A DNA stretch of 64,000 nucleotides from positions 62,001-126,000 of the forward strand of contig NZ_PPTR01000001.1 in assembly GCF_003339845.1 (NCBI RefSeq), given 5' to 3'. Position 1 is the first letter of the stretch; every line of letters starts with the position of its first letter. Made by a program: the position numbers and the translations under genes. Positions 1,547 through 55,231 of the stretch are shown in pieces. The DNA is from Gordonibacter sp. 28C. Its GTDB lineage: Bacteria; Actinomycetota; Coriobacteriia; Coriobacteriales; Eggerthellaceae. The notes beneath the pieces are model-generated. The model was not told where the DNA came from. It worked only from the letters and a program-made list of their open reading frames with translations, and searched no databases.

Positions 1547-4027
1547 ATGACCGAGACAGCAACATCGCGCGGGTTCTCACGCAGAAGCTTTATCAAGGGG
1601 GCCGCGGCCTTGACCGCCGCCGGCGCACTGGTGGGTTGCAGTCCAAAAACGGATGACAAGGACAAAGCGGATCCGGCAGCCGTTGAATCGTCTGATCAAA
1701 TTTTCTCCGGAACGTGCCGCGGCAACTGCGGCGGGGGATGCTTCCTAAACGTGCATGTGCGCGACGGGCAAGTGGTGCGCACGTCGGCGCGCGATATGCC
1801 CGATCCTCAATACAACCGTATTTGCACGAAGGGGCTCACCCATGTCGGGCGCATGTACGGCGCCAACCGCGTTATGTACCCCATGAAACGCGTAGGCGAG
1901 CGCGGGTCCGGTGACTTCGAGCGCATCAGCTGGGACGAAGCCCTCGACACCATTGCCGAAAAATGGAAGGGATACACCGAGCAATACGGACCCACCTCCA
2001 TCATGTTCTTCCTGGGCTCTGGCAACTACGCGGCTCTCAGCGGATCTTGCAACAGCGTGGGTGCGTACCAGCGCTTCGTAAACGTCATGGGCTGCTCGTA
2101 CTGCAGTCTCGACGTCGACGCAGCCGTGGGCTTCGGCAGCTCGCGCGCCACGGGAGGCATCGACCTGGCCAACGAGCTCACGGATCGCAAAAATGCCAAA
2201 ACCCAGATTATCTGGGGCAATAACCCCACCATTTCCCTCATGCACACCATGCACTTCTTCTTGGAGGCCAAGGAGAACGGAACGCGGTTCGTCGTCATCG
2301 ATCCCGTCTACAACGCTACCGTCTCGAAGGCCGATTGGTGGGTTCCCATCAAAGCGGGCACCGACGGCGCTTTGGCCCTGGGCGTGCTGAACGTGCTGCT
2401 GGAAAACGGATGGATAGACCAAGGCACGTTGCGCGGCAAAACGAACTGCGGTCTTCTCATCAAGGAGGACGGCGCGTTTCTGCGCATGAGCGATTTGGGA
2501 GTGGAGCCCACCAAGGGCGACCCCAACCCGCTGACCGGAGAGCCTACCGTCGTCGATCCGCCGGCAGTGTGGGACGAGGCGGCTGGCAAAGCGGTCGCTT
2601 TCAGCGAGACGACCACGCCTGCCCTTGAGGGGGTCCCCGACGTCAACGGCGTCAAGGTGCAGACGGTGTACGAAAACGCCATGGGTTACATTTCCGAGTA
2701 CCCGCCGGCAACGGCGGCCTCGGTCTGCGGCCTCACGGAAGATCATGTGCGAGAGCTTGCCCGTATATATCATGAGGATGGTCCTGTTACCACTGAGATC
2801 ATGATGGGCATGAACCATTACCGCAACGGCCACTACAGCGCATGGCCCGTGTACCTGGTTTCCCTGCTTACGGGCAATGCGGGCAAGCCGGGAGCGGCTA
2901 TCGGCCAATCAGAAGAATATCTTCCGCAGATGCTCTATTCGAATAGCAAAGAGGCATGCAGCCCCACCGACGCCTCGGGCAAACCGTGTCCTGGGCAAGC
3001 CAATCTCATTCATACCGTGCAGATCCAAGATGTTCTCGACACAGGCAAGTTCTTGGGCGAGGACCTCGCCATCAAGAGCGCCTACATCCACTGTTCGAAT
3101 CCGGTGGTCACCATGTGCGATCACGATTACACCACCGGCTGGTTCGACAAGCTCGAATTCGTGGTCGTAGCCGACATGTGCATGACGGAAACGTGCAAGC
3201 ATGCCGATATCGTCCTGCCTTCTGCACACTGGTTCGAGCAGGTGGATCTGGGATTCTTGTTTTCCACCCACCCCTATCTGCTTTGGCAGGATAAATGCGT
3301 CGAACCTCTCGGCGAAGCCAAGCCCGATTTTCAGATATTCAAATTGCTGTGCGAGAAGATGGGCAAAGGCGAATTCTGGGACATTTCCGAAGAGGAGTAC
3401 CTCGAAACGCTGCTCGATTCCGAATACTGGAAGAGCGTAGGCTGCACGGTGGAGAAACTCAAGAACGACAAGGCGGCCCGCATTTACCCTGAAGGCGACA
3501 AGATTGCCTCCGCCGAGGTGTTCGGAACCGAAACCGGTCGCATCAACCTGTATCAGGATACGGTGAAGCGCGCTTACGTGTCCGCCAAGGAAGTCGACGA
3601 ATCCATCGAGCGCGGTTTGCATTGGGAAACGCCTACGTTTGCGGGCGAGGATCGCGAATACCGCGCCACCTATCCGTATCATCTGCTTTCGGAGCATATG
3701 CGCACCCATACCCACACGCAATGGTGGGACTGCGAATACGTGAAGGAGTACGAGCCTGAGCCTATCGTGCGCATCAACCCCGATGACGCGGCCGAGATGG
3801 GCATTGCCGAAGGCGACATCGTGAGGCTTTCCAACGATCAAGGTTTCGTTGTCATGAAGGTCGCCATCAACGCGGGTCTTCCGCGCAAGATGATCAGCTC
3901 TGCCCGAAGCTGGCAGATAGACGATTTCATCGACGGACACTACGCAAGCCTTCCTTCAAGGGAATACAACCAGGTGTGTGCGAACCAGGCGTTCAACGAC
4001 GTGGCCGTCGCGATAGAGAAGATGTAG
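1547..4027 (+). CDS. Molybdopterin oxidoreductase catalytic subunit, Tat-exported lipoprotein
   Basis: An 826-residue Mo-bisPGD enzyme of the DMSO reductase superfamily. The N terminus has a twin-arginine signal (SRRSFIKG, residues 11-18) followed by a lipobox (LVGC, Cys31), so the enzyme should be exported folded and lipid-anchored outside the membrane. The Fe4S4 ligands are Cys57, Cys61, Cys65 and Cys93. The superfamily core follows (WDEALDTIAEKW; IIWGNNPTI; WWVPIKAGTDGALALG; ADIVLPSAHWFEQVD), with a C-terminal molybdopterin dinucleotide-binding domain. ATG 1547 is chosen for its GAGAGGAG site. A four-cluster ferredoxin and a TorD chaperone follow, as in DmsAB-type reductases, but there is no DmsC/NrfD anchor. 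The substrate cannot be read from sequence. Confidence 0.9.
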   Translation: MTETATSRGFSRRSFIKGAAALTAAGALVGCSPKTDDKDKADPAAVESSDQIFSGTCRGNCGGGCFLNVHVRDGQVVRTSARDMPDPQYNRICTKGLTHVGRMYGANRVMYPMKRVGERGSGDFERISWDEALDTIAEKWKGYTEQYGPTSIMFFLGSGNYAALSGSCNSVGAYQRFVNVMGCSYCSLDVDAAVGFGSSRATGGIDLANELTDRKNAKTQIIWGNNPTISLMHTMHFFLEAKENGTRFVVIDPVYNATVSKADWWVPIKAGTDGALALGVLNVLLENGWIDQGTLRGKTNCGLLIKEDGAFLRMSDLGVEPTKGDPNPLTGEPTVVDPPAVWDEAAGKAVAFSETTTPALEGVPDVNGVKVQTVYENAMGYISEYPPATAASVCGLTEDHVRELARIYHEDGPVTTEIMMGMNHYRNGHYSAWPVYLVSLLTGNAGKPGAAIGQSEEYLPQMLYSNSKEACSPTDASGKPCPGQANLIHTVQIQDVLDTGKFLGEDLAIKSAYIHCSNPVVTMCDHDYTTGWFDKLEFVVVADMCMTETCKHADIVLPSAHWFEQVDLGFLFSTHPYLLWQDKCVEPLGEAKPDFQIFKLLCEKMGKGEFWDISEEEYLETLLDSEYWKSVGCTVEKLKNDKAARIYPEGDKIASAEVFGTETGRINLYQDTVKRAYVSAKEVDESIERGLHWETPTFAGEDREYRATYPYHLLSEHMRTHTHTQWWDCEYVKEYEPEPIVRINPDDAAEMGIAEGDIVRLSNDQGFVVMKVAINAGLPRKMISSARSWQIDDFIDGHYASLPSREYNQVCANQAFNDVAVAIEKM

Positions 4028-52771: not shown

Positions 52772-54956
52772 CTAGCGCCTGCGCGTGCGAAGGCGCAGGG
52801 AAAGGACGGTTATGCTTGCGGCGCAGAAAAGCAACAGGGTCACCAAGCCTGCGGTCGGACCGGCGACGTCATCGCCCGTGGCAACGAGGGCGACGGGGGT
52901 CTTGCGGTCGTTCACCTTGAGCGAGAACTCCTTAGCAGCATCGGGGGCAAAGCCGTTGGCGACTTGCACGGTGAAGGTTGCCGTCCCCGTGGCGTGCGGC
53001 GTGCCGGAGATGATGCCGTCGGCGGAAAGCGAAAGCCCCTCCGGCAGCGTTGATCCCGGCTTGAGGGTCCAGGTGAACGTTTCGGGATAGCCGGCTGCGG
53101 ACAGCTTTTGGCGGTACGGCAAACCGGTCGTGGCATCGGGAAGCGAGGAGGTGGTTATAACAGGGTGACCGCTCACCGCGAGATGGAACGCCTGCGTGGT
53201 GGAGCCGTGTTCGTTGGTCGCCTTGACGGAGAAGGTATAGAAACCTGAATCATGCGGCGTGCCGGAAAGCTTGCCGTCGGGTGCCAGGGAAAGCCCGTCG
53301 GGCAGCGCGTCCGTCTCGGCGCTCCACGACGCGCTGTTGTCGTCGGAGGCGAAGCTGAAGCGGTAGGGCTTTCCCGTCTCGCCCGCGGGGAGCGTGTCCG
53401 AGACCGTGATGACAGGCGGGCCCACCACGGTGATCGAGAAATCGGCGGTATCGGCACCGTAGTCGTTTGCAGCTTCGACGGCGAAGGAGGATGCGCCTTT
53501 AGTGCTCGGCGTGCCGGAGATGATGCCGTCGGCGGAAAGCGAGAGTCCCGCAGGCAGTTCGCCTGAGGCAACGCTCCACGCAACGGGCTCGGTTCCCGAA
53601 GCGGCAAGCGCCTGACTATACAGTTCTCCTGTCATTGCGAAGGGAAGATCGGTGGTGGTGATATGCGGAGGCCGGTACTCCTTCCAGACGGCGTAAAGCG
53701 TGTTGCCGCCCCTCTCGAAGTCGACCGCTTCGCCGGGTTGGTAGGACGTCCCTGTGCCGTCTGAGGAGGTGTTCCACTCCTTGAACTTGTATTGGGTGGA
53801 CTCGTATGGCGCGCGCGTGAATGCGCATTCTGGCGCGGGGGCGGTCGAGTCTCCGGGAACCCCTTCGGTGGACGCCATGGTACCCGAGCCGCCGTTGGGG
53901 TCGTAGGTTATAAGCCCGCACGTCGTGGCGGAGAGAGGTTTCTCCGAACCGGTCTTGTAGGCGGGGCCTGAGTACCGGACTTTTATTTTGTCGTAGGTTG
54001 TGTAGGGAACGAGCCCCGAAAAAGAGGGTTTGGTCTGCCATGTTTTGCCGTCGAGGCTATAGGATACGAAAACGTCGGCGGGTCTCTCCGTCGTGATGGT
54101 AATCCCGATCCAAGTGGCGCTCACCGGGGTGACCGCCATAGGCTCAGGCGGCGCGTCCCGTTCGGCATGCTGGCGTACGTAGAACGAATCGGGCCACCCT
54201 GCGCTCTTGTAGTCGTCCGGCAGTTTGCTCGGCAGCTTGCCGTCGTCGTAGTCAAGGCTCCGGTCGAGGCGGACCCAGGTGTCGCGGTACCCGTCCCGGG
54301 TGTCGGCAGGAACCTGGGCCAGAATGTTCTCGTTGCAGTTTTGTTCCAGGTGTACGGAAAGGAGCGCGGAACCGGTGAACATGTCGTCTGCTTGCATGTT
54401 CGTGTCGCCGAAGTTGTCGGGCAGCGTAATGTCATTGAGCTCCGCGCAACCGGAGAACATGTTTTTCGCGTTCACGATAGATCTGCCGAATCCGGAGGTC
54501 GCCGTAAAGGAGCCGAGTGCCTTGCAGTCGGAGAACATGCCCTGCGCGTTCGTGATGCCCTGATCGAAGTTCGGGGGCAGTCTTATCGACGTCGCAGCGA
54601 CCATTCCGGCGAACAGAGATCGCATATCGCCTTGTGCGGTCACGCCAGCCTCGACGGTGATGTTCGTAGCAAGGTTGGCGCAGACCAGCCATCCTCGCTG
54701 CGTGCTGCTGTCGTACGGGTCCAGCTTTCCGTTTCCGCCATCCGTCAGCTTTATCGTCAACACATGGGTGTAGTCATCGTATGTCCAGGTGCATCCGCCG
54801 TCGGTGCCAAAAATGCAAAACAGCTCCGAAAGCCTGCGACGGCGCTGTCGGAACGAGGCCCGCCGCTAGAACGAGCGTTAGAAGAAGAGCGAGGAAGCCC
54901 CTCCCCCGAACACCTCGGACTGCGTCTGAGCCTCCATGCGGCGCACGTGCTATCAT
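52772..54956 (-). pseudogene. Frameshifted BspA/InlB-like cell-wall surface protein
   Basis: Two frames together encode a surface protein. The first (from ATG 54956) has a signal peptide (FLALLLTLVLAAGLVPTAPS, then QAFG); at the T5 run (54809-54813) the reading must drop one base to continue into GTDGGCTWTYDDYTHV and the 54763-52772 frame. Content in order: DUF285-like leucine repeats (FAGMVAATSIRLP, AKNMFSGCAELNDITLP), an InlB B repeat (ITYDPNGGSGTMAS), three Ig-like He_PIG repeats ending in SADGIISGTP or similar, then LVATG plus a hydrophobic tail ending in RTRRR, a variant sorting signal. It is either a decayed gene, a sequencing error, or phase-variable: a C12 tract lies near the start. 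Confidence 0.75.
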
Positions 54957-54988
54957 GACAGGGAGGTCGAGCGAGTTATGCGGGCGAC

Positions 54989-55000
54989 GGGGGGGGGGGG
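54989..55000 (-). repeat. Homopolymeric C12 tract in the 5' end of the surface-protein gene
   Basis: Twelve Gs on the plus strand (Cs on the coding strand). An ATG at 55012 has an excellent site, GAGGAAGAGG, 5 bases upstream and reads into the tract. With 12 Cs it stops after 19 codons at a TGA that overlaps ATG 54956. With 13 or 10 Cs it reads straight into the signal-peptide frame. This is the classic shape of a slipped-strand contingency tract. Confidence 0.7.
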
Positions 55001-55155
55001 CGTGATTCCCATGGCTGCCTCTTCCTCAAGCTCAAAGTTAATCGTATCACTTTGATTTAATGCATGGATTATGGCAGGTCGAAACCGCTTTAGCAAGAGA
55101 TGCGAGGCATTCATGGGCCATCGGCCGATAAAGGCCGATGGCTTGCGAGCTTCAA

Positions 55156-55231
55156 TGGTGCCCCCGGCGCGATTCGAACGCGCGGCACCCGCTTTAGGAG
55201 AGCGGTGCTCTGTCCCCTGAGCTACGGAGGC
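55156..55231 (-). tRNA. tRNA-Arg, anticodon CCU
   Basis: A 76-base tRNA read on the minus strand: acceptor GCCTCCG pairing with CGGGGGC (one G-U), D arm TAGCTCAGGGGACAGAGC, anticodon stem CCGCT/AGCGG with loop CTCCTAA (anticodon CCT, for AGG), T arm CGCGCGTTCGAATCGCGC, discriminator A and an encoded CCA. It is the only RNA gene of this kind in the window. Such rare-codon tRNA genes are often attachment sites for integrating elements, but no integrase is next to it. Confidence 0.96.

Follow-up and report, generated by a model that had tools for sequence, protein, structure and literature searches.

A C12 tract at the 5′ end of a frame-disrupted surface-protein gene in Gordonibacter sp. 28C, and candidate C/G-tract switches in the Eggerthellaceae

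Organization of the C12 locus

The window, a 64,000-nucleotide stretch of the Gordonibacter sp. 28C genome, contains a surface-protein gene on the minus strand whose 5′ coding end carries a run of 12 Cs. From the 5′ end of the gene region to its 3′ end, the features are as follows.

55156–55231, minus strand: tRNA-Arg(CCT), the upstream boundary of a variable gene site (from synteny)
55068–55096, minus strand: sigma-70-like promoter candidate TTGCTA-17-CATAAT, upstream of the tract and present in a congener too
55018–55027, minus strand: ribosome-binding site (RBS) GAGGAAGAGG, also present in the congener
54953–55012, minus strand: leader ORF that, with C12, runs for 19 codons from the conserved start to a TGA overlapping ATG 54956
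54989–55000, minus strand: C12 homopolymer tract, a member of a genome-wide tract class
near 54961, minus strand: first frame break relative to the intact orthologue (−1), which tract length can offset
54774–54956, minus strand: signal-peptide frame MIARAPHGG...FLALLLTLVLAAGLVPTAPSQAFGA..., ending after 60 codons (from translation)
54810–54840, minus strand: second frame break relative to the intact orthologue (+1), past the signal peptide, which the tract cannot offset
52772–54865, minus strand: open surface-protein body of 697 codons, with its first usual start at GTG 54763

Around the start, the minus strand reads ...GAGGAAGAGGCAGCC ATG GGA ATC ACG CCCCCCCCCCCC GTC GCC CGC..., with the ATG at 55012. 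A first-pass annotation of this DNA had described a start at 55012 with a good ribosome site, reading into a C12 run ahead of the surface-protein body. Both elements are real: the run occupies the minus-strand positions listed above, and the ORF of a congener begins at the same ATG behind the same RBS. The promoter candidate agrees with the consensus at 9 of 12 positions (0.2 expected) and, as it lies upstream of the C12, a transcript from it would include the tract. The C12 therefore belongs to the translated 5′ part of the gene, with a promoter-like site and a conserved start and RBS all lying ahead of it. Translation of the tract variants reproduces the frame arithmetic given earlier for 10 to 13 Cs. 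With C12 the leader frame reads MGITPPPPVARITRSTSLS and stops at the TGA at 54955–54953, which overlaps ATG 54956; with C13 or C10 the signal-peptide frame is entered; and with C11 an earlier stop, TAA, is met. The signal-peptide frame itself stops at 54776–54774 and differs from the frame of the 697-codon body, whose codons span 54865–52775; this mismatch was overlooked in the first-pass annotation.

The sole orthologue in the genome collection is found in Gordonibacter sp. Marseille-P2775 (L073:3955–6063). It is an intact ORF of 702 codons with the same ATG, RBS and signal peptide, and with a tRNA-Arg upstream; identity to the window gene is about 95% over the start, the RBS and the DNA ahead of them. 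This intact orthologue (702 aa) corroborates both the start at 55012 and the identity of the product as a surface protein. At the position of the C12 it has CCCC, and the region differs by 6 bases with the frame preserved. The tract is thus missing from the only intact orthologue, and there is therefore no conserved switch at the window gene.

The second frame break, whose exact column varies with the aligner, is decisive for the window gene. Because it lies downstream of the signal peptide, no tract length joins the start, the signal peptide and the 697-codon body, and no change of one or two bases in the tract brings a full-length gene into frame. The earlier proposal that the tract switches a large adhesin on and off consequently survives in part: the tract is of the contingency type in kind, and the frame logic of such a locus holds as far as the signal peptide, but the second break bars the full protein. 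A change of tract length alone would toggle between the 19-codon leader and a short signal-peptide fragment, with no large adhesin produced. The body nevertheless runs for 697 codons without a stop, and dN/dS relative to the congener is 0.31 for the signal peptide (over 45 codons) and 0.59 for the body. Both the open body and these ratios are consistent with a gene loss that, if real, was recent rather than old. The C12 length and the second break each rest on one assembly. Other genes in the roughly 50 kb syntenic with the congener contain very few frame breaks that go uncompensated, which makes a generally poor assembly unlikely, although a local error may have occurred.

A profile search places He_PIG Ig-like and List_Bact repeats in the window protein above cut-off. 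An LRR_5/BspA-like match is weak, with E values of 0.0017 for the window protein and 4.3e-5 for the orthologue, both below the gathering cut-off. Inspection by eye of the C-terminus of both proteins revealed LVATGD, then a hydrophobic stretch and several basic positions (...LVATGD..TM..RTRRR), an end that looks like a sortase-type anchor. The window protein had no match in NCBIfam and no relative in the viral contigs searched.

In two other congeners nothing comparable lies between the tRNA-Arg and the gene that follows it, while a third carries just a C12 tract and a lipoprotein gene at this position. The site next to the tRNA-Arg is therefore variable. A possible equivalence between the window tract and a C12 at the same tRNA-Arg site in congener genome G001 was considered and dropped, as the similarity of the flanks is too weak.

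C/G tracts in the genome and the family

The first-pass annotation judged a 12-base run unlikely by chance, and shuffled sequence agrees, with 0.20 C10 words expected per window; the tract is not unique in the genome, however. Pattern searches of the source genome (3.86 Mb in 32 contigs) returned 38 C/G runs of at least 10 bases (14 C10, 5 C11, 15 C12, 2 C13 and 2 longer), against only 8 runs of exactly C9. In a 273 kb sample, runs of length 5 numbered 304 and runs of length 6 numbered 36, with none of length 7 or 8 and a single run of length 9. The run-length distribution is two-humped and is no random tail, and by this distribution the C12 lies beyond chance; it is also long enough to slip, for which about 8 or more bases are needed.

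The two longest runs, C18 and C24, form contig ends (L061:33–50, and L068 from 3001 to the end). Their flanks match a single tract in genome G002 (L103), which suggests that the two ends represent one long tract that broke the assembly.

Comparable tracts are found in the four congeners examined, at 26–43 per genome. The C12 word is present in 61 of 138 family genomes, with few or none in many genera. Of the tracts retrieved, 32 pairs occupy orthologous sites in different species, frequently with unequal lengths, and some of these pairs span genera with flanks only 68–79% identical; flank comparisons among the congeners show such pairs as well. Conservation of position on this scale speaks for the maintenance of at least some of the tracts by selection.

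In complete genomes, the C tracts are strand-biased by genome half: 28 of 34 tracts in G002, 22 of 27 in G004 and 29 of 34 in G056 fit the best axis (shuffled-sign p = 0.005, 0.022 and 0.002, respectively), where the axis is a best fit and not a located origin. The bias is suggestive of a dependence on replication orientation.

Tract loci resembling switches

Genome G001 contains 15 genes for secreted surface proteins in which a G10–G13 tract directly follows the signal peptide (L136, L141, L144–L146, L148, L149, L152, L153, L169, L173, L174, L181, L184 and L185). Five of these are in frame and 10 are out of frame, and in most of them both wrong frames stop after a few codons. Six of the bodies were scanned: four contain LRR_5/BspA, one LRR_4 with List_Bact, and one List_Bact alone. 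In L136 and L148 a second internal tract terminates the frame, and both tracts would therefore have to be right for the full frame to be read.

Two further loci carry a G-tract in a 5′ coding end:

L038:2908–6000, plus strand: GGDEF-EAL-PAS gene with a 5′ G-tract at 2992–3003 (relatives in L204, L218, L207 and L154)
L047:2469–3772, plus strand: exopolysaccharide priming transferase after a NusG/LoaP-like gene, with a G-tract at 3001–3012 (relatives in L088 and L111)

The GGDEF-EAL-PAS tract lies 57–60 nt past a conserved ATG and is conserved in two genera and five species. The gene is in frame in the source genome (tract G12) and in genome G057 (tract G14), and out of frame in genomes G003 (tract G13), G056 (tract G12) and G001 (tract G10). 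The priming transferase, which has a Bac_transf match at E 9.5e-59 and the NusG/LoaP-like gene directly 5′, begins with a GTG start followed by the G-tract; it is in frame in the source genome and in genome G002 (tract G12) and out of frame in genome G004 (tract G11). In three species (L050, L132 and L200) a G11–12 tract interrupts a membrane LuxR-type gene, which is out of frame in each of them. Signal-peptide scans of the source genome returned one gene with a G-tract, that for a secreted beta-helix protein (L063:2–2998, minus strand), where an in-frame G10 interrupts the signal peptide itself; no gene with a signal peptide followed by a G-tract was found.

At the G001 surface-protein genes, the GGDEF-EAL-PAS gene and the priming transferase, a change of one or two bases would join the start to the full gene, and relatives or paralogues differ in both tract length and frame. 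Slipped-strand switching of surface genes by C/G tracts of 10–13 nt is, at the level of sequence, well supported in Gordonibacter.

Interpretation of the window locus and of the tract class

On balance, we favor the reading that the C12 is a slip-prone member of a genus-wide tract class and that the gene is silent and, in the present assembly, locked in that state. The C12, located early in the coding sequence of a Gordonibacter cell-surface protein gene, would be prone to slippage, and the 10–13 nt C/G class to which it belongs would act, judging by reading frames, as slipped-strand switches at other loci in the genus. The likely history is that a tract-bearing surface gene was silenced and then gained further frameshifts while unexpressed; it is just as plausible that the tract lengthened once the gene was dead. 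We infer slippage in living cells, the order of these events and the correctness of the assembly at the second break. Long C/G runs are known to slip during replication in other bacteria, including at the pilus genes of Bifidobacterium breve (PMC9187656) and in Neisseria (PMC5084427, PMC5320596). MutS was not found in 138 Eggerthellaceae genomes, nor was a convincing NucS, whose matches were partial hits of about 42 residues; given these absences, slips may escape repair. The idea that missing mismatch repair is the cause of the tract-rich genera was dropped, as MutS is absent family-wide while tract counts differ strongly.

The lack of MutS and NucS-type repair also bears on a second possibility, namely that the tract was never a switch and that the run of Cs grew neutrally in a gene already dead. 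This is unlikely, yet it has some purchase: a rough ORF caller assigns the majority of the 38 tracts to intergenic DNA or to the margins of genes, and the window locus bears further damage that the tract cannot bridge. It sits poorly, however, with the many tracts that persist at orthologous positions in separate species and in some cases separate genera, with the several tracts that fall exactly at the 5′ coding ends of plausible switch targets, and with a tract richness that, in contrast to the loss of repair, is not family-wide. The signal peptide and body at the window locus, moreover, still resemble a recently functional gene.

It is somewhat more doubtful still that the window gene is a working one-step phase-variable surface gene, with a second break that stems from misassembly or is peculiar to this strain. 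Were the assembly wrong at the short T runs near 54830, this would be an ordinary one-step contingency locus, and both the fully open body and the conservation of promoter, RBS and start ahead of the tract would suit such a locus. Clear surface switches combining a signal peptide and a tract occur in the genus, both in and out of frame as in G001, and in-frame tract genes are present in the source genome itself. As assembled, however, the tract is unable to bridge the break at 54840–54810, the assembly appears reliable elsewhere, and the intact orthologue lacks the tract.

Production of the protein regardless, by translational coupling at the ATGA overlap together with ribosomal or transcriptional slippage at a T run, is very improbable: the leader stop does overlap the signal-peptide start and T4 and T5 runs do lie at the second break, but no recognized frameshift signal was noticed (by inspection rather than a dedicated tool), and the congener has a single continuous frame there. 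Least probable of all is a chance run or sequencing artefact, since, although contig ends near long C tracts (C18 and C24) make tract lengths uncertain, the window tract is internal with unique flanks on both sides, the excess over the run-length distribution is enormous, and the same tract class is found in single-contig congener genomes.

The favored reading, of a slip-prone tract before a locked-off gene, can be compared with known systems. In B. breve, the sortase-pilus genes bbr_0113 and bbr_1889 carry a G10–12 tract whose length sets expression on or off; heterogeneity in tract length was measured by deep sequencing, and the pili are visible by electron microscopy (PMC9187656). As at the window gene, the host is a gut actinobacterium (in the broad sense), the tract is found near the 5′ end of the coding sequence for a secreted surface protein, and the Sec signal and anchor parts are in separate frames. 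One slip restores the frame in B. breve, whereas at the window gene the second break blocks restoration; the window tract, in addition, precedes the signal peptide and has C on the coding strand. The poly-G/poly-C contingency genes of Neisseria similarly involve long mononucleotide tracts within or close to genes for surface structures (PMC5084427, PMC5320596), with many tracts per genome and lengths that differ between relatives. They belong, however, to another phylum and other gene families, and phase variation has been tested there, while Gordonibacter is known from sequence only. Within the same family, Eggerthella lenta reversibly switches its surface through phase variation of capsule gene clusters (PMC13174815, a preprint). 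The switching there occurs by megabase inversions rather than homopolymer slippage, and slipped-strand mispairing is treated in that work just as a general mechanism (PMC13174815). Searches of open-licence full texts turned up nothing on slipped-strand phase variation in Eggerthella, Gordonibacter, Coriobacteriia or Eggerthellaceae, which is not proof that no such report exists.

Taken across species, the reading frames and tract positions indicate that Gordonibacter, together with one or more other genera of the Eggerthellaceae, probably harbors an undescribed set of switches, built on C/G tracts of 10–15 nt at orthologous sites. These would randomly switch a GGDEF-EAL (c-di-GMP) enzyme, an exopolysaccharide priming transferase beside a NusG/LoaP-like antiterminator, and a large BspA-like surface family, with the window locus as a decayed member of the set. 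The window locus is mainly a caution, as it demonstrates that a tract at a 5′ end does not prove a working switch. Gordonibacter and Eggerthella are gut bacteria that metabolize drugs and polyphenols, and little work has addressed their surface variation. Should the tracts slip, as their pattern of occurrence implies, a clonal population would be mixed with respect to capsule priming, c-di-GMP signaling and surface proteins, and phage sensitivity, colonization and the reproducibility of experiments would be affected.
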